A stretch of DNA of 64,000 nt from Verrucomicrobiales bacterium (GCA_029210205.1 JARGOD010000001.1:62001-126000); one strand, 5' to 3'; numbered from the stretch's first letter, positions 35,844 to 45,254 are shown. The notes: generated from the sequence alone by a model not told the origin. Translations and numbers: made by a program.

Positions 35844-36980
35844 ATGACGGAATCTACGAAAAATCTCTCGGCATCGTGTCTGGTATCAAGTCCATTTGAT
35901 CAAGAATTGATTCAACAAGCCGCTCATGCCTGCCTAAATAAGCTCGGCAGCGATCCCGACCTTGTCGTTGCCTTTGTCACGTCTGACTACAAACCTCATC
36001 TGAAGGCATTGACTGAATCGCTCCAGATCGATGGTCATGCCTCTACGATTATCGGCGGCAGCGCCTGTGGATTGGCGGGAGTAAGCCGCGAGCAGGAGCA
36101 CATCAGCGGAATTTCCCTGCTTTTCCTTTGCATGCCAGAGACAGACATCAAAATCGGCGAAGATATCGTTTCGGGCGCGATTCCCGATGCAGCGCTCTTG
36201 CTCAGCAACCCTCTCGAAACCACTTTTGATTCCCTGCTTGAAAAATGGGACGACAAATTTCCGGGCTGTCCTCTCGTCGGAGGAAATATCACAGGAGGAC
36301 CGGATGAGGAAGCTCTCTTCTTGTTCAATGAGTGCGGCGAGGTCATTTCAGGAAGTCTTCTCGCGCACTTCACCGGCGGGGTCAAAGTTGAGTCACTCGT
36401 CGCTCCGGGATGTCGGCCGATCGGGAACCCTATGGTCGTCACTGAAGCAGAGGGCGATGAGGTCCTCTCACTCGGACGCCGGGAACCTTTCGATGTTCTC
36501 GAGGAAACGTTCTCGGCCCTTGGTGAAGATCTCCAGATCGAGGCTGAGGGAAACATCTTCGCCGGGGTGGTCATCAATGAGCAAACGGACGAGTTCGAAA
36601 GTGGCGATTTCAGAATTCACCAAATTGTCAGTGCGAGGCTTGAGGATGGCCGCCTCAAGCTAGGTTCTCCGGTCAGGGCCGGTCAAACGATGCAGTTCCA
36701 GCTTCGCGATTCGCTCGCTGCCGAGATGCTGCTACGATCAGAGTGTGATCGAATTTTTGAGGCTTCAGGAAAGCCGTTTGCTGCCCTTCTCTTTATGGGG
36801 ATGGGCCGCGGCAAGAATCTTTTCGGTGTGGAAGACCGCAATGTGAGAACTTTTGAGGAAACATTCGGGAAGGTACCTCTGACAGGAATTCATTCGTTTG
36901 GTGAGGTGGGTTCTGCTAGTTCCATGACCGAGCGCCACGATCATTCCATCTGCGGGGCACTTTTTTATTCAAAGGATTGA
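35844..36980 (+). CDS. FIST domain protein
   Basis: 378 residues, no signal peptide or membrane segment. An N-terminal FIST_N domain (about 30-215) shows GGSACGLAGVSREQE and FPGCPLVGGNITGG, and a C-terminal FIST_C (about 225-370) shows ALLFMGMGRGKNLFG and FGEVGS. FIST domains are cytosolic sensory modules thought to bind small ligands such as amino acids. Here the protein has no attached output domain. It converges with a GAF-subtilase operon, 6 nt between ends. A 17-codon ORF (35794-35847) overlaps its start by ATGA. Confidence 0.85.
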   Translation: MTESTKNLSASCLVSSPFDQELIQQAAHACLNKLGSDPDLVVAFVTSDYKPHLKALTESLQIDGHASTIIGGSACGLAGVSREQEHISGISLLFLCMPETDIKIGEDIVSGAIPDAALLLSNPLETTFDSLLEKWDDKFPGCPLVGGNITGGPDEEALFLFNECGEVISGSLLAHFTGGVKVESLVAPGCRPIGNPMVVTEAEGDEVLSLGRREPFDVLEETFSALGEDLQIEAEGNIFAGVVINEQTDEFESGDFRIHQIVSARLEDGRLKLGSPVRAGQTMQFQLRDSLAAEMLLRSECDRIFEASGKPFAALLFMGMGRGKNLFGVEDRNVRTFEETFGKVPLTGIHSFGEVGSASSMTERHDHSICGALFYSKD

Positions 36981-36986
36981 GCTGGC

Positions 36987-37742
36987 TCAATTCTCACGCA
37001 AGCTGGCCAACGCCACCTTCAACTGAAACGCCGTCAAATCAGGGAAGTGCTGTCGGAGTTTCGCTGCGATCCCCGTGATCTGCGGACAGGCAAAACTTGT
37101 TCCCGTGAACTGCTGCCATCCACCAGCCGGGGTAGGAGCGTCGACGTAGACTCCACTGGCTTCCACCTCAGTGACCCGATCAGAGAAGAAGCGGAAATTC
37201 AGTGGATCTTCGAAGTAATCCATGTCCACACCCACGACCGAAGCAAGTCCTGCGGGATAGCCGACTTTATTCCGTTTGTTGTCCTTGGCGGCAACCCAGA
37301 GCATTCCCTGGTAGTAGGCTTTGTCGGCGAGACGGGCTAACTGCTCGTAACTGGACTCAGTCCCGAGGCTGAGATTCAAAATGTCCCACTGCTGCTCAAC
37401 CGCGAATTCCAAAGCGGCGAGCAGCTTTTGTGATGTTGCGCTATGACTTGCCCCAATGACACGAACACTGTGCAGTTCCGCTTCGGGGGCGTGTTGGTGA
37501 ATAATGTAGGCACACGCTGTCCCGTGATCGATAACATCCTCCCCTTTCGCCAGTGAAACGATTTCCGGTTTACCGCGCCTGTACTCGACGACTTCGTAGT
37601 TACCCACCACCGCTCCATTCAACTCTGGCAAGTCAGATGCCACGCCGGAATCAAGAATCCCCACTTTGACGCCTTTTCCAGTCCCGCTGGCAAGACATTC
37701 ACGGAGGCGCTCCTGATCAACCACCCGGTCAAATGTCTTCAT
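36987..37742 (-). CDS. Cytosolic mini-subtilase (S8 family peptidase)
   Basis: 251 residues, without signal peptide, propeptide or C-terminal domain, much smaller than most subtilases. Catalytic triad: Asp31 (ILDSGV), His73 (DHGTACAY), Ser216 (GTSFACPQ). The oxyanion-hole region, AAGN in most relatives, reads AAKDN here, so the usual Asn is shifted or replaced. The start at 37742 follows a GAGGAAGAGGAAG ribosome-binding stretch and overlaps the GAF gene by 14 nt; a start at 37766 is also open. Tight coupling with GAF suggests signal-controlled proteolysis, or leader-peptide cleavage for the RiPP locus at 40-45 kb. Both are inference. Confidence 0.85.
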   Translation of the reverse strand: MKTFDRVVDQERLRECLASGTGKGVKVGILDSGVASDLPELNGAVVGNYEVVEYRRGKPEIVSLAKGEDVIDHGTACAYIIHQHAPEAELHSVRVIGASHSATSQKLLAALEFAVEQQWDILNLSLGTESSYEQLARLADKAYYQGMLWVAAKDNKRNKVGYPAGLASVVGVDMDYFEDPLNFRFFSDRVTEVEASGVYVDAPTPAGGWQQFTGTSFACPQITGIAAKLRQHFPDLTAFQLKVALASLREN

Positions 37743-38463
37743 GTCTATCTTCCTCTTCCTCTGCAAACTCGCCTAGCAAATCAGCCATCCTCGAAAGCAT
37801 TTCACGTTCCTTTTCGGGTAATGAGAGGGACTTTTCTGCGATCAAAGCCGGGATACGAAATTTGTGAGCGACCTCGCTGGCACGCGCGAGCCCCCCCATT
37901 TCCTCGAGTCCGAATTCACTCACATGCTCGGCAATTTCCAGCTCAGCTACCGAGGTGCTGAACTCGATCTTGCGATAGAGTTTCATCGCCGTTGCATAGA
38001 TTTCACCGAAGCCTTGCGCCGCTTTCAAGTCCTGAATTGAAAACGGTGTCTCCGAGGCTTCCCCGCAGCGATTCACGAATGTTGCGACCCCGTAGACGCG
38101 ATCGTCATCAATGATCGGAACGGCGAGGAGAAACTGCGTCTCAATTTGCGCGACTTCGTCCACCTTAGAGACACCCGGACTTTCCGGATGAACCTTTGCC
38201 ATGGCCTGACGTGAACTGAATACATAACCACTCACCGAACGGGAAACCGAAACCGTGATGTCAGACCCCTCAAGCGCGGGGTTCATAGACACGAGAAACC
38301 GGAGCTCGGTCTGATCATCTGAAGGAATCAAAATTGACCCTTCCGAGGCCGAAATCGCCTCACAAGTATCTTTCACCAGTTGACGCAACATTTCAGCCGC
38401 ATCGAGAAGAATCCCGTCGCCATGCTTATGGATGCGCTTCAACGCCGTCGCGAAATCGGACAT
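37729..38463 (-). CDS. GAF domain protein
   Basis: 244 residues from the ATG at 38463 (an ATG at 38547 would add 28 residues of unlikely sequence). After an N-terminal helix, a GAF domain spans about residues 15-160: SASEGSILIPSD, VSRSVSGYVFSSRQ, FLLAVPIIDDDRVYGVATFVNR, LKAAQGFGEIYATAM. The C-terminal ~75 residues are helical and highly acidic at the end. GAF domains bind small ligands such as cyclic nucleotides or haem. It has no HATPase, GGDEF or DNA-binding output; its only coupled partner is the mini-subtilase downstream. Confidence 0.8.
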   Translation of the reverse strand: MSDFATALKRIHKHGDGILLDAAEMLRQLVKDTCEAISASEGSILIPSDDQTELRFLVSMNPALEGSDITVSVSRSVSGYVFSSRQAMAKVHPESPGVSKVDEVAQIETQFLLAVPIIDDDRVYGVATFVNRCGEASETPFSIQDLKAAQGFGEIYATAMKLYRKIEFSTSVAELEIAEHVSEFGLEEMGGLARASEVAHKFRIPALIAEKSLSLPEKEREMLSRMADLLGEFAEEEEDRHEDI

Positions 38464-38571
38464 GAGAGGAATAGAACACAAGCGACAGAAAAGAGCACGT
38501 CGATTCGTCTTCTTTTCTTGAACCTCTGGATAACTACCCATTAGCATAGAAATCGATTCATCCCGTATTTA

Positions 38572-40005: not shown

Positions 40006-41211
40006 CTAAAAACCACCCGGCCCGAGCTGATTGGCCCATGCCGCCCATTCGCGCTGCTCATATTCTTTCGCGACCTGTTCGTCCTCTTTTTCAAAGTAGT
40101 CCCACGCTTCCTCGAACTCATGGACGAGGCGGCCGTCGCACTCAACGAGCTTTTGAAACCACTCAGGATCGGTGACTCCGTATTGCTTGACTGCTTCGGG
40201 GGCGTTGGCGAGAAATGCATCGCGAAAAGGCGGATTCGAGATGCGTCCCATGAGCGCCCTTTGAAAGCTTTTCATCCCCGCGAACTCGGGTGCATCAGGA
40301 TCCGGAGCAATATCCACGTCAGCAAAGGGAGCACTCTCGAGCGTTGGAGCCTCGGAAGGTCGATGGCTATAAAAGATCTCACGCGCCTTGCGAATATCAG
40401 TCATGACTGAATCAAATGGCTTGAGCTTGCTGTCCCGCTCAAGAATCACATTTCGGAGATTTGAGGAACGCTTCACTGCTTCGTTAAAGAGTGGCCAGAC
40501 TTCATCCATCACAGGAGCAGAGTGGCTGTCCTCCCATCGTCCGTCAGGTAACTGATGCCCACCGGCGAGATGCATCTGGGACACGCGATCCATCGGGAGT
40601 CGGTCAATAAACTCGATTGGGTCGTAGTTGTGATTCCTCGAATTGTTGAAGACATTCGTCACATCGAGCAACAGGGTGCAATCAGTCTCTTCGCAAATCC
40701 GACAGAGAAACTCAGCTTCACTCAATGAGCCTTTCGGAACGGGAAAGGAGTAGGTCACATTTTCGAGGGCAAACGGACGCCCAACCGCGCGGCGAGCGGC
40801 ATAGTAGTTTCGCTTAACCCACTGCACCGCAACTTCTTCAAACGGGATCGCAAGGAACATCGTGAGATCATTTCCATCGACGCGATGGTAGGCGAGATGC
40901 TCACTGAAAATGTTGAGACCATTCTCTTCCATGAAGCGCCTCGTGCTATTGAGGTAGACATCGTCGAGTTCACCGACCGTACCGATCGAAAGGCTGAGGC
41001 CATGAGCGACGCATGGAAAAGTCGCAAGTGCATCCTTAAGAAGGCGTTCGTTAGGGTCACTGAAGGTGCGGCGCTCACGAATGATATAGTCTTCCGTTGA
41101 AATTTCGAGGAGATCGATCTCGCTGCGGTGTTGCACTGCTTCGCGGTGAACATTGAAGCGATAAGCCAGGCCGACGCCGTAAGGCTGCTCGTGATGGTTC
41201 GGGTTGCTCAT
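40006..41211 (-). CDS. DUF692 (MNIO) peptide-modifying enzyme with C-terminal extension
   Basis: 401 residues. Residues 1-285 are a DUF692 TIM-barrel of the multinuclear non-haem iron oxidative (MNIO) family, with candidate metal ligands His70, Glu104/His105, Glu150/Asn151, Asp183/Asn186, His214, Asp228/His230 and Glu259. Family members oxidise Cys or Asp residues in RiPP precursors. Residues about 305-401 are an extra helical domain containing MGRISNPPFRDAFLANAPEA and YGVTDPEWFQKL, resembling LigA/nitrile-hydratase-like leader or partner modules, possibly replacing the separate partner protein MNIOs usually need. It is downstream of the precursor gene on the same strand. Confidence 0.85.
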   Translation of the reverse strand: MSNPNHHEQPYGVGLAYRFNVHREAVQHRSEIDLLEISTEDYIIRERRTFSDPNERLLKDALATFPCVAHGLSLSIGTVGELDDVYLNSTRRFMEENGLNIFSEHLAYHRVDGNDLTMFLAIPFEEVAVQWVKRNYYAARRAVGRPFALENVTYSFPVPKGSLSEAEFLCRICEETDCTLLLDVTNVFNNSRNHNYDPIEFIDRLPMDRVSQMHLAGGHQLPDGRWEDSHSAPVMDEVWPLFNEAVKRSSNLRNVILERDSKLKPFDSVMTDIRKAREIFYSHRPSEAPTLESAPFADVDIAPDPDAPEFAGMKSFQRALMGRISNPPFRDAFLANAPEAVKQYGVTDPEWFQKLVECDGRLVHEFEEAWDYFEKEDEQVAKEYEQREWAAWANQLGPGGF

Positions 41212-41235
41212 GTCAGGGGGAATCTACGTTGAGTG

Positions 41236-41266
41236 AACAGGGTTGGGTCACTGACTTAACCCTGTT
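41236..41266. repeat. 31-nt palindromic repeat, copy 2
   Basis: AACAGGGTT (41236-41244) and AACCCTGTT (41258-41266) are perfect inverted arms; inner GTCA/TGAC (41247-41255) lengthens the possible stem. It lies 25-55 nt upstream of the DUF692 start, between it and the precursor gene. The outer arms are shared with 2792-2822 and 58428-58458. Confidence 0.75.
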
Positions 41267-41326
41267 AGGTGTTCATCGTTTTCGCGAAAGTTCAGAAAAC
41301 GCTCACGGAAAAGATGACCTTCGGAT

Positions 41327-41358
41327 TCTCCGGGCAGCTTTATGAAGCTGCCCGGAGA
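41327..41358 (-). terminator. Strong hairpin after the RiPP precursor gene
   Basis: TCTCCGGGCAGCTT (41327-41340) is perfectly complementary to AAGCTGCCCGGAGA (41345-41358) with tetraloop TATG: a 14-bp GC-rich stem 17 nt past the precursor stop. There is no U-run on the minus strand, so it may act as an mRNA-stabilising or attenuating structure that keeps precursor output above that of the DUF692 gene, rather than as a full terminator. Confidence 0.7.
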
Positions 41359-41375
41359 TCGAAGATATCTACCAA

Positions 41376-41735
41376 TCAGTGGTGGCAGTGGTTGCGCCAG
41401 CAGTTGCGACGCCAGCAGTTGTTGAAGTAATTGCGACGCCAGCACCAGTTGTGTGCTTCAACGTCTCCTTCAGCTTCGCTTTCAGGACCTTCCTCGTAGC
41501 CACCTTCGTAGCCGCCCATAGGCGCACCACCAGTGTGGATCTGAATCACGACCTGACCGTTCGTGCCTGGAACAGGCATTCCCTGGCTTGGGCCGGGGCC
41601 GACTGGTCCTTCGGTGGGGCCAACGCCCGCATCACCGAGTTTTTCTTTGATCTGGTCCGCCGGGATGAGCGCGCTCTCGAGCTGCTCATCTGCGACTTCA
41701 TAGAACTTTCCGTCACTACTTCTAAGTATAGCCAT
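41376..41735 (-). CDS. Putative RiPP precursor peptide
   Basis: 119 residues. Leader: MAILRSSDGKFYEVADEQLE plus PADQIKEKL (1-33), then a Gly/Pro-rich linker (38-60), a QVVIQIH strand (61-67), a Gly/Tyr/Glu-rich stretch (69-93) and a tail (95-119) dense in Trp, Cys, Asn, Arg and His. The tail contains W97, W99, W108, W113, C98, C107, C112, C117 and repeats of the form W-R-R-N or W-R-N (99-102, 108-111, 113-115). An AAGGA ribosome-binding site precedes the ATG. It sits between the radical SAM maturase and the DUF692 gene, which supports precursor identity. No export signal is present. Confidence 0.8.
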   Translation of the reverse strand: MAILRSSDGKFYEVADEQLESALIPADQIKEKLGDAGVGPTEGPVGPGPSQGMPVPGTNGQVVIQIHTGGAPMGGYEGGYEEGPESEAEGDVEAHNWCWRRNYFNNCWRRNCWRNHCHH

Positions 41736-41824
41736 GTTATTTTTCTTTCCTTGGTTTTGGTTTTGTTATGTTGTGGTTGATGGCCCGCCTCGTGAAAATT
41801 CAGTTGGCGTGGACCAGCAAAGGG

Positions 41825-43111
41825 TTAGACGCCTTCCGGCTTCGGTAATTCAATAAGCGGTGATTCGGTCTCATTGATGCCGAGATCATTCTCAAGGTCT
41901 TCGAGCACGATCTTCATCGGCATCTGCACGGTGGAGACGCACTGGTGAGTTTCAGTCGAGTCGAAGGAGCCGTTCTCGTAGTATTTGTTCGAGGGAGATG
42001 CACCGCCGCAGTATTGGTAAAATTCACACTCCTGGGAGCACTTCTTATTTCCCGCTTCGATGTCGGCAAGAACGTGCTGAAAAGATTCGTTCACGGTCGC
42101 GTCATAAAGCGACCCGCCGATGAGACTTCCGAAGCTGAACGATCCATATTTTTCCGTCGGCTGACCGAGCAACTCGGGAGAGAACATCGAGAAGTTGCCA
42201 AAGCAATCGACATTGATCATGCCAAAAGGGTCAGCCTCCTGATTGTAGTAGTCGCCGTCGGGCTTCGAACACCAGCCGGGCTCCATGATGTTCCGCTCGG
42301 CGTTCTGAAACTCTCTCACATTGAGAGGAAATCCGTCGGCTTTGTTGCGGAGATAGAACTGCTTGAGAAACGAATAGATGCGATCCCGACCACCGGATTT
42401 ATCGAGCGAGGAGGTGGCATTGGCACCCTCGACTTCCTCTATGTTGAATCCGATTCCGGTAATGCCGTGCTCCCGGTAAAAGTCATACATTTCATCAGGA
42501 TGATCGACTGAGACATCAGAGATCACGGAGACAACTCCGAAGGGGACGTTGTTCTTCTTGAGGCACTCAAGACCGCGCATCGCCTTATCGAAGGTGCCCT
42601 CACCTTTTCGCGTCTTGCGGTGGTGGTCGTGGATGTGCTGAGGGCCGTCGATGCTGATACCGACTTCCACTTCGTGCTCGTTGAGGAACTCGCACCACTT
42701 GTCATTCACAAGGGTGCCGTTGGTTTGCACGGAGTGGATCACGAATTCTTTTGCCTTCGGGTAACGGTTGATGATTTCAAAGGCCTCCTCATACCACTTG
42801 ATTGGAACAGCAAGAGGCTCACCGGCATGCCAGAGGAGGCTGAAGGGATTCATGACAAGCCCGCTTTCCCAGACCTTGTCCATGACCTTTTCGAGCACTT
42901 TGAAATCCATACGGCGGGTGTCGGTCCGATTCGGCAAATAGCAGTAGTCGCAGTTGATGTTGCAGAACGGGCTCGGCTGAATCACGAGTAACCCCATCGA
43001 AAGGCGCTCGGAGTTTTGCGGCGTCAACTTCGGGATCGTTCCGGTCACGTGACCTTCGGAAACATTCCGTGAAGGAGTGACAGTTGGAGTGGCTTCAAGG
43101 GTGGTTGTCAT
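41825..43111 (-). CDS. Radical SAM/SPASM peptide maturase (GrrM-like, cyclophane-type)
   Basis: 428 residues. Radical SAM cluster ligands are C50, C54 and C57 (CNINCDYC). WHAGEPL, VQTNGTLVND and GISIDGP-IHDHHRKTRKGEGTFDKAMRG are the core features shared with the GrrM/OscB cyclophane-forming maturases. A C-terminal SPASM domain has cysteines in GWCSKPD, NVDCFGNF, KCSQECEFYQYCGG and HQC for two auxiliary Fe-S clusters. The first ~40 residues are a Thr/Pro-rich extension. It is expected to install radical cross-links on aromatic residues of the precursor, whose gene begins 89 nt downstream. It resembles sulfatase-maturing enzymes in fold, but context argues for a RiPP role. Confidence 0.88.
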   Translation of the reverse strand: MTTTLEATPTVTPSRNVSEGHVTGTIPKLTPQNSERLSMGLLVIQPSPFCNINCDYCYLPNRTDTRRMDFKVLEKVMDKVWESGLVMNPFSLLWHAGEPLAVPIKWYEEAFEIINRYPKAKEFVIHSVQTNGTLVNDKWCEFLNEHEVEVGISIDGPQHIHDHHRKTRKGEGTFDKAMRGLECLKKNNVPFGVVSVISDVSVDHPDEMYDFYREHGITGIGFNIEEVEGANATSSLDKSGGRDRIYSFLKQFYLRNKADGFPLNVREFQNAERNIMEPGWCSKPDGDYYNQEADPFGMINVDCFGNFSMFSPELLGQPTEKYGSFSFGSLIGGSLYDATVNESFQHVLADIEAGNKKCSQECEFYQYCGGASPSNKYYENGSFDSTETHQCVSTVQMPMKIVLEDLENDLGINETESPLIELPKPEGV

Positions 43112-43164
43112 GATGCAAGGGAGACGATTGGAGATTTCGAGATATGAAATTTTTCTGAAGGTTT

Positions 43165-43326
43165 TTACTTCCGCTCTTTTAAAGAAGCTTCGAAGGCGTG
43201 CGGCCGATGATGATTTTTCTTCGCACGCTTTTCACGGACGAGGTCGATGCGATACTGGAGCGGCTGCTTTGCGCGGGCTCCGACTCGCACTGAGCGGATT
43301 CGATCGTTGAGGCTTTTGGCTTTCAT
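43165..43326 (-). CDS. 53-residue basic small protein, possible cluster member
   Basis: ATG at 43326, stop at 43165, 53 nt upstream of the radical SAM gene on the same strand. The product is very basic (many Lys/Arg), opening MKAKSLNDRIRSVRVGARAK and ending in HHRPHAFEASLKERK. No Shine-Dalgarno sequence is evident, but that is also true of the radical SAM gene. I do not recognise the family. It could be an accessory or regulatory peptide of the RiPP operon, or a spurious frame. Confidence 0.45.
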   Translation of the reverse strand: MKAKSLNDRIRSVRVGARAKQPLQYRIDLVREKRAKKNHHRPHAFEASLKERK

Positions 43327-43478
43327 GGAGAGAAATGATCTGAAGTTATGAATTGGTTTTCAAGCCTTACCGGGAAAATGAACTGCCACGGTTTTGCTCT
43401 TGAATTTCGAGGTGAATCGAATCACGCTCCCCGGAGAGACGGCCCGGGTCGGCTCCTTATGCAAAAGGATCTCCACTC

Positions 43479-45254
43479 ATGTCGAACGAACCGCCCGCAT
43501 CCCCTTCCCAGAACGAAGGACCACCCATGGATGGCCCTGATGGTCCACCGCCCGGCTTCGACCTCGATCCAAAGGAGATGCGAAAGCACTGCTTCCGGCT
43601 CATTCGAGAAGTGATCGGGAGCCTTGGGTGGAAGTATAAGCTGTGGATCCCGGCGGCAATGCTCCTCTCTGCCGTTCACCTGCTCCCGCCCCGCTTCCTT
43701 CTCTTTTTCACGGAGCGAACCCAGGCCCTTTCCGAAACCGGGGCTGATGACTTTATCAAAATGCTTCTCATTTTCGGGGTCGCGGTCGGCGTTTGCCAAT
43801 GGCTCGCGCTCGTCTTTGACAGCATCCTCAGCGAATGGCTTCGCCTCACCGTGAGCATCCGAATGAAGCAAGACGCGGTCGACAGCCTCAGCCGCACTCG
43901 TATCGACTCTTTGGACTCTGCTCAACGTGGGGATTGGATGACACGCCTCTCCAGCGATATTTATAATGCTGAAGAATTCCTCACCGCTTCCCTCCCCGGC
44001 CAGATCACCAACTTCACGATGATGGTCGGTTCGGCGGCGCTCTTCTTCTATTACTCAGGCCCGATCGCTTTCATCCCACTCGTCGCGGCGCTTTTTCTTG
44101 GTTGGTTCAATATCGCGGTGCAACGAAAAATGGGACCCGTCCTCTCTCGCGCTCGCATGCTGGAAGGTGGCGTCTTTCAATCCATGATTGAAACCTTTGA
44201 AGGACTGCGCACGATTCGCAGTTACGGAGCCGAAGGCTTCACCCGACGTAAACTGACCGGGCAGCTGAACGAAGTTTACGATGTCGGGATGCGGATCACT
44301 AGATCCATGGCCTTGCTCATTGGGGTGACCGAGTTTGTCGGTCAACTCATCGTCACGGGTCTCCTGACCCTTGTTGCTTTTCAGGTCATCGGGGAAACGC
44401 TCACCGCGGAGAATGCGCTCGTTTACCCTTTTTATCTCACGCTTTTTCTCGGAGCAGCGAAAGGGCTCGTGGGATCAGCCTACGACTGGAATCGTTTCTT
44501 CATCGAAGGCGGGCGCCTTGCCTCCCTGCTCTATGATGAAGACAATAAGGAGGCAGATCGCGAGAAGCTCTTCGGAACCTTCGAGTCGGATATCAAAGCA
44601 GTGAAGCGCTTCTCCGCTGAGGGGATCTCAATTGCGTACGGTGATAATCCGCCCGTGATTCGGAATCAGGATCTGGAGCTGAGCCGTGGTGAGATTGTCG
44701 CCCTCATGGGCGAATCCGGCTGTGGAAAATCGACCCTCACGGAATCCTTTGCAGGACTCCGTCAAGCGAATGCCGGTTCATTTGTTGCCGCGATGGATGG
44801 TGGAGAAAATCGGACCTTCGAACAGGCGCCTCCCTTCCTCGGTGCCTTTGTCGAGCAACAACCCTACCTCTTTGTTGGAAGCATTCGGGATAACATCACC
44901 CTCGGCCACGGAGATGTCAGCGACGACGATGTTCGCTCGGCTCTTGCGGAAGTCGGACTCGCCGCAACGGTCGAACAGCGTGGTGGACTGGATCACGTCC
45001 TCACGGATCGTGGCCGAAACATGAGCGTTGGTCAGCAATACCGCCTTGCTCTCTGCCGCGCTCTTGTGTGCGGGCGACCTTTCCTCCTCATGGATGAACC
45101 CTTTGCCGCGCTCGATGAGGAGTCGGTCGAGCTCGTCGTCAAATCAATGAAGGAGGAACGAACACGCGGGACCGGAATTCTACTGATCACTCACCTTCTC
45201 CCTGAAGGGCTCGAAGCCGACCGAATTGTCGACCTCGTGGCGCACCGGGATTGA
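43479..45254 (+). CDS. ABC exporter (fused permease-ATPase)
   Basis: 591 residues. After a cytosolic Pro/Gly-rich N-terminus (1-45), a six-helix transmembrane domain (about 55-345) precedes the ATPase domain (about 370-590). Walker A GESGCGKST is near 411, Walker B FLLMDEP near 535, and H-loop ITHL. The ABC signature is degenerate (MSVGQQYR instead of LSGGQxQR). Type IV exporters of this form move peptides or lipids outward. No C39 peptidase domain is present. It is divergent from the radical SAM operon across 152 nt, so it is the likely exporter of the modified peptide, which is inference. Confidence 0.82.
   Translation: MSNEPPASPSQNEGPPMDGPDGPPPGFDLDPKEMRKHCFRLIREVIGSLGWKYKLWIPAAMLLSAVHLLPPRFLLFFTERTQALSETGADDFIKMLLIFGVAVGVCQWLALVFDSILSEWLRLTVSIRMKQDAVDSLSRTRIDSLDSAQRGDWMTRLSSDIYNAEEFLTASLPGQITNFTMMVGSAALFFYYSGPIAFIPLVAALFLGWFNIAVQRKMGPVLSRARMLEGGVFQSMIETFEGLRTIRSYGAEGFTRRKLTGQLNEVYDVGMRITRSMALLIGVTEFVGQLIVTGLLTLVAFQVIGETLTAENALVYPFYLTLFLGAAKGLVGSAYDWNRFFIEGGRLASLLYDEDNKEADREKLFGTFESDIKAVKRFSAEGISIAYGDNPPVIRNQDLELSRGEIVALMGESGCGKSTLTESFAGLRQANAGSFVAAMDGGENRTFEQAPPFLGAFVEQQPYLFVGSIRDNITLGHGDVSDDDVRSALAEVGLAATVEQRGGLDHVLTDRGRNMSVGQQYRLALCRALVCGRPFLLMDEPFAALDEESVELVVKSMKEERTRGTGILLITHLLPEGLEADRIVDLVAHRD

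Follow-up and report, generated by a model that had tools for sequence, protein, structure and literature searches.

A Verrucomicrobial gene cassette that may combine triceptide cyclophanes and MNIO oxidation on one peptide

The subject of this analysis is a cassette for a ribosomally synthesized and post-translationally modified peptide (RiPP), found in a 64,000-nucleotide stretch of DNA from a Verrucomicrobiales bacterium (GCA_029210205.1, JARGOD010000001.1:62001-126000; hereafter, the window). It comprises a 53-residue basic protein, a radical S-adenosylmethionine (SAM)/SPASM maturase of the GrrM/OscB family, a 119-residue precursor, a multinuclear non-heme iron-dependent oxidative enzyme (MNIO), and a divergent ATP-binding cassette (ABC) exporter (Table 1). 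The best explanation of the data, to which we assign a probability of about 0.58, is that the cassette makes a hybrid peptide bearing both triceptide-type cyclophanes and MNIO-oxidized residues, with the chemistry of the enzymes and of the product deduced from sequence. If this is correct, a phylum that has been little explored would yield a peptide class in which strained cyclophanes occur together with heterocycles that derive from Cys and probably bind copper. The initial annotation had placed a RiPP locus of five genes in a probable Verrucomicrobium; locus type, host, and open reading frame (ORF) coordinates were all borne out.

Conservation and distribution of the cassette

The maturase was used to scan 84,980 species genomes, and 28 loci were obtained. 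The order ABC exporter (divergent), 53-residue ORF, maturase, precursor, and MNIO was found in 16 of the 28 and in additional genomes (16 to 18 further genomes), with MNIO identity across the recurring cassettes falling from 83% to about 54%. This recurrence speaks against a chance arrangement, and the comparison shows that the genes form one conserved unit. The initial annotation would have been refuted if the precursor never adjoined both enzymes elsewhere; it does so in about 18 other genomes, and the annotation passed this check. Two variants of the arrangement were seen: in L021 (3650-5230), a 526-residue threonine-dehydratase-like gene between the precursor and the MNIO splits an otherwise conserved cassette, and L026 (7416-8265) carries two tandem precursor genes, the second repeat being YF in one core and CF in the other.

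Draws from the order, about 280 genomes in all, contained 20 with a maturase of the MNIO-paired clade, and the MNIO C-terminal domain was present in exactly these 20. In one of these (G024), the maturase and the MNIO lie at the ends of two contigs, with the precursor in the assembly gap. Presence is patchy even within the window's genus, where 15 of 34 genomes carry the maturase. Phylum-wide genome draws returned no genome beyond the window's own with TIGR04261 at a strict threshold and a single doubtful extra match (E 0.005) with the precursor; in the genomes sampled, the cassette did not extend beyond one family of one order. In a maximum-likelihood maturase tree, all MNIO-paired maturases lay to one side of a single branch with support of 100/100, a topology consistent with a single origin.

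Both the precursor and the 53-residue ORF are conserved at the protein level. Substitutions at first, second, and third codon positions numbered 545/320/1915 for the precursor leader and 28/43/265 for the core, mostly third positions in each, and 2240/1742/3230 for the 53-residue ORF, where the third-position excess is weaker than in the precursor.

Maturase, core peptide, and MNIO

The maturase, initially annotated as GrrM-like, proved to be a true GrrM/OscB member, scoring 439.6 bits against TIGR04261 (cut-off 310). The CxxxCxxC radical SAM motif is present as FCNINCDYC near the N terminus, and SPASM-type Cys residues were read at the C terminus (KKCSQECEFYQYC and further Cys). Its Pfam matches were to radical SAM and 4Fe-4S only, with no B12-binding domain. 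In OscB products, the beta carbon of an Asn or Asp at i+2 is linked to Trp or Phe; the related XncB links Trp to Arg or Asn (PMC11002830).

Neither the precursor nor the 53-residue ORF matched a known family in NCBIfam and Pfam, where stray matches only were found. The precursor also gave no match to TIGR04260 (GrrA/OscA), which was passed by four scanned MNIO-less precursors (L036, L037, L039, and L084). The leader is its best-conserved stretch. When the cores were aligned, they resolved into four [C]-Omega-X-(X)-N repeats, where Omega is an aromatic residue (CWRRN-xFxN-xWRRN-CWRN). The core of the window reads CWRRN-YFNN-CWRRN-CWRN-HCHH, that of L031 reads CWRRN-CFHN-CWRRN-CFRN-CYR, and that of L034 reads CWHN-CWRRN-CWRN-CWHN-CWHH. 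FxN and WRN sites are carried by all cassette cores, and since OscB and XncB join aromatics to Asn or Arg, these would be standard cyclophane sites. In WRRN, the crosslink partner could be the Arg at i+2; the Asn at i+3 is a less likely candidate.

Precursors of GrrM loci without an MNIO (Verrucomicrobia, Bacteroidota, and Rhizobiales) are likewise rich in Omega-X-N. Core Cys was found in 16/16 MNIO-paired precursors and in 1/15 MNIO-less GrrM precursors (Fisher p 6e-8, a value that counts a single event repeatedly, the MNIO-paired set being one clade). A fair reading of the sequences is that MNIO gain and core Cys gain coincide on one branch. The initial annotation had named Cys and Asp as known MNIO targets; Asp was dropped as a target because the window core contains none, which leaves Cys as the likely one. 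With MNIO-paired and MNIO-less sister loci to compare, the target residue can be tested directly. The sole Cys-bearing core among the MNIO-less GrrM loci (L079:2700-3092, minus strand) has two RRRGCWR units, with no MNIO in the flanks examined.

The MNIO, named as DUF692/MNIO in the initial annotation, scored 235 bits against PF05114 (cut-off 25) and is thus a real member of that family. Its subfamily scores were 202 bits for HvfB, 188 for BufB, 89 for ApyH, 58 for ChrH, and 33 for MbnB. A Foldseek search with the structure model matched 3bww, 8hci, and 7dz9 at E 1e-12 or better, and the model resembles 3bww, TglH, and MbnB. Across 18 members, neither the ERD motif nor the His, Asp, and Glu positions of the MNIO fold vary. 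In the alignment with 3bww, the first of two adjacent Arg (R18) and ERD (D260) are retained, the second Arg is replaced by Phe or Tyr, and the residue after ERD is Ser, not Phe; these positions presumably correspond to Arg15, Arg16, Asp249 (the catalytic base), and Phe250 of FonB. HvfB/BufB-type enzymes convert Cys to 5-thiooxazole in copper-associated captophorins (PMC13097082).

No DUF2063 partner gene is present in the cassette. The MNIO itself carries a helical C-terminal domain (model pLDDT 84), which the initial annotation had missed while recognizing the enzyme. The Os1348 NHLP-clan model NF038399 matched this domain in 14/18 members (best E 3.6e-6), below the curated cut-off of 40 bits; the scores among the matches listed were 12.5 to 20.9 bits. 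The top structural match was 6lk7 (Os1348) at Z 6.4, within the noise range for helical domains. Foldseek returned no match to the domain at E below 1, and its profile gave stray matches only (E 0.18 or worse), with no MNIO partner chain, among PDB sequences. We interpret the domain as a partner fused to the enzyme, which may have an NHLP-like origin. This fits the tendency of signal-peptide-less MNIO precursors of the TIGR04222 type to pair with non-DUF2063 partners (PMC12452194). A second, stop-containing fragment of the domain lies elsewhere in one genome (L113, G011:C18:640692-640859), perhaps a second-cassette remnant.

The 53-residue protein and alternative readings

The 53-residue ORF was listed in the initial annotation; its likeness to GrrA leaders was missed there. 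The consensus of the protein, SLxxRIxxVRxxxRxxQPLxxRIxxVR, consists of one helix motif present twice and kept in divergent loci. The same motif occurs in canonical GrrA leaders, e.g., NSLETRIQKLRQQL (L039) and SSLDQRVARVRQTL (L038). With a hidden Markov model (HMM) of the 53-residue family, 9/15 canonical precursors scored at least 3.3 bits, each exceeding all 200 of its own shuffles. The background rate at 3.3 bits was 0.28% of 1795 ORFs, with none at 5 bits, and among the top background ORFs was the L041 precursor, which lies immediately upstream of its maturase. In the reverse test with a GrrA-leader HMM, 14/18 of the 53-residue proteins exceeded the 99.9th percentile of the background. In hhalign, the 53-residue profile matched GrrA leaders at E 1.4e-4 with a probability of 53%; for the new precursor, the E value was 0.28. 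The match to GrrA leaders holds mainly, as judged from these sequences, for Verrucomicrobia and Bacteroidota.

The gene sits directly upstream of the maturase, the usual position of GrrA. No GrrA leader helix was found in the new precursor, and no aromatic-X-Asn core in the 53-residue protein. Because the ORF matches the GrrA helix at GrrA's place and the new precursor is without that helix, a leader acting in trans is suggested. The simplest account of the sequences would be that the 53-residue protein is a GrrA descendant that has lost the core and signal peptide and presents the recognition helix in trans. We tentatively extend this to a natural split precursor, a proposal whose chances we place appreciably short of even: the maturase leader would be a separate gene (a core-less GrrA in trans), the core would be borne by a new peptide whose own leader, the second in the system, would serve the MNIO, and the product would contain cyclophanes and Cys-derived heterocycles sharing Asn-Cys junctions. 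If true, this would be a natural RiPP maturase whose leader is encoded as a separate protein, useful to direct such enzymes to leaderless peptides.

Several observations weigh against these assignments. L032 (genome G637) is the sole cassette with no 53-residue homologue, either near the maturase or genome-wide, while its maturase, precursor, and MNIO seem intact. The leader match concerns a short helix at an hhalign probability of 53%, and the leader test failed for the Rhizobiales GrrA (L042 and L045) and L051. It is close to an even prospect, falling only slightly short, that the protein is a regulator, chaperone, or structural remnant and that the maturase recognizes the precursor's own MAILRSSDGKFYEV leader. 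The absence from L032, the brevity of the shared motif, and the strong conservation of the precursor leader all favor this alternative, whereas the retention of the protein in all other cassettes examined, at GrrA's place and with the helix motif twice, and the two-way HMM and profile matches speak for a role as leader.

Other points bear on the MNIO. Its scores fall below the equivalog cut-offs (HvfB, 202 of 360 bits; BufB, 188 of 310 bits), so naming 5-thiooxazole as its product is a guess from among the chemistries open to MNIOs. Since the MNIO-paired loci all belong to one clade, the link between Cys and MNIO amounts to one evolutionary event. Several core Cys positions change to His or Tyr in the alignment, and only about two are kept family-wide. 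This last point, together with the known non-Cys chemistry of MNIOs (on C-terminal Asp, on Asn, and as Phe hydroxylation; PMC12452194), would suit modification of a non-Cys core residue (e.g., Asn, His, or an aromatic), with the Cys residues serving as metal ligands, disulfides, or maturase-made thioethers. We regard this as unlikely, since 14/15 MNIO-less sister precursors are Cys-free yet retain aromatic-X-Asn sites and the MNIO scores closest to the Cys-modifying HvfB and BufB. It is far less probable still that the maturase and MNIO are mere neighbors acting on different peptides. The two families are of separate origin, and in L021 an unrelated gene stands between precursor and MNIO; that reading is opposed by the all-or-none presence over about 280 genomes, by the occurrence of one precursor type per cassette (two tandem copies in L026), and by the lack of an aromatic-X-Asn core in the 53-residue protein.

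For a hybrid triceptide/MNIO peptide, the following pathway is proposed. The strong hairpin 3' of the precursor stop would help to make the precursor in excess, and the 53-residue protein would activate or tether the maturase in trans. The maturase would form three-residue cyclophanes by linking an aromatic to the beta carbon at i+2: Trp or Phe would be bonded to Asn and, in WRRN, Trp perhaps to Arg. The MNIO, working via its fused helical domain and probably the conserved MAILRSSDGKFYEV leader, would oxidize the cyclophane-adjacent Cys at Asn-Cys junctions, most likely to 5-thiooxazole as in its nearest characterized relatives; the same leader may serve the MNIO, export, or both. An unlinked protease would then remove the leader, possibly cutting near the conserved V(E/T)(A/P)HG, and the cleaved product would leave through the ABC exporter, which has no peptidase domain. 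Copper handling is a plausible role, for which the type of MNIO is the sole hint; an antibacterial role is just as possible.

Known systems and locus layout

Among the known systems near to the cassette are the GrrM/OscB triceptides (TIGR04261/TIGR04260), which share the maturase family, the aromatic-X-Asn sites, and the leader-helix motif, placed here on a separate protein. The cassette differs in its precursor, which is not of TIGR04260, has Cys in every core, is encoded downstream of the maturase, and carries neither a Sec-type leader nor the GrrA helix, and in the addition of an MNIO and an ABC exporter. The captophorins/bufferins (HvfB/BufB-type MNIO) resemble it in the MNIO superfamily, nearest by score, and in a Cys-bearing core. 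Unlike them, the cassette is without a Sec signal peptide on the precursor (by sequence reading), the EGKCG motif, or a separate DUF2063-RRE partner gene, and possesses the fused NHLP-like domain and the cyclophane maturase. The NHLP/Os1348 clan shows a weak sequence likeness, under the curated cut-off, and a possible fold likeness to the MNIO C-terminal domain, and here the domain belongs to an enzyme, not to a precursor.

In the biphenomycin-like (pbs) and aminopyruvatide (apy) clusters, a single peptide is known to be modified by both an MNIO and a radical SAM enzyme. These differ from the cassette in having a B12-dependent radical SAM enzyme and separate RRE partner proteins and in an MNIO that acts on Phe or C-terminal Asp. 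Since both the biphenomycin-like PbsA peptides (PMC12257519) and the aminopyruvatides (PMC11002830) are published, the initial claim that a product carrying both modifications would be new had to be narrowed: the novelty is the triceptide/MNIO hybrid, not MNIO plus radical SAM as such. The pairing of a SPASM cyclophane maturase with an MNIO was not found in the open literature, nor was any report of an MNIO with GrrM, a Cys-punctuated triceptide core, an NHLP-like fused domain, or a natural in-trans leader for a bacterial RiPP, a weak absence given that subscription papers lay outside the search.

Table 1. Features of the cassette, with positions counted from the first nucleotide of the window
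Feature	Position	Strand	Basis
MNIO (PF05114), 401 residues; HvfB/BufB-like TIM barrel (residues about 12-279) and C-terminal extension	40006..41211	-	
Fused helical C-terminal domain of the MNIO (residues about 306-395), NHLP-clan RiPP leader-like	40027..40296	-	Structure model, NF038399, 6lk7
Strong hairpin within the gap that separates precursor stop and MNIO start; candidate attenuator or mRNA processing/stabilizing element	41318..41365	-	-34 kcal/mol
Precursor, 119 residues; conserved leader MAILRSSDGKFYEVADEQL, variable Gly/Pro-rich linker, C-terminal core	41376..41735	-	Alignments
Core peptide HNWCWRRNYFNNCWRRNCWRNHCHH; four [C]-aromatic-X-(X)-Asn repeats	41379..41453	-	Alignments; comparison with 15 MNIO-less precursors
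GrrM/OscB-family radical SAM/SPASM maturase; predicted three-residue cyclophane former	41825..43111	-	TIGR04261, tree
53-residue basic protein; candidate trans-acting leader, helix motif LxxR[IV]xxVR twice	43165..43326	-	Conservation, HMM/profile comparison
Divergent ABC exporter, membrane domain and ATPase	43479..45254	+	PF00664, PF00005; cassette-conserved

The gap between the precursor and the MNIO contained a long GC-rich hairpin in 15/15 cassettes tested, with z values of -2.8 to -9.2 relative to dinucleotide shuffles; its sequence varies among cassettes and its stability is kept. No C39 peptidase domain was detected in the exporter with NCBIfam and Pfam. Just beyond the cassette on the MNIO side, window positions 35844-38547 carry three ORFs close together, labeled FIST-like, subtilase-like (a short ORF), and GAF-like by sequence reading alone.

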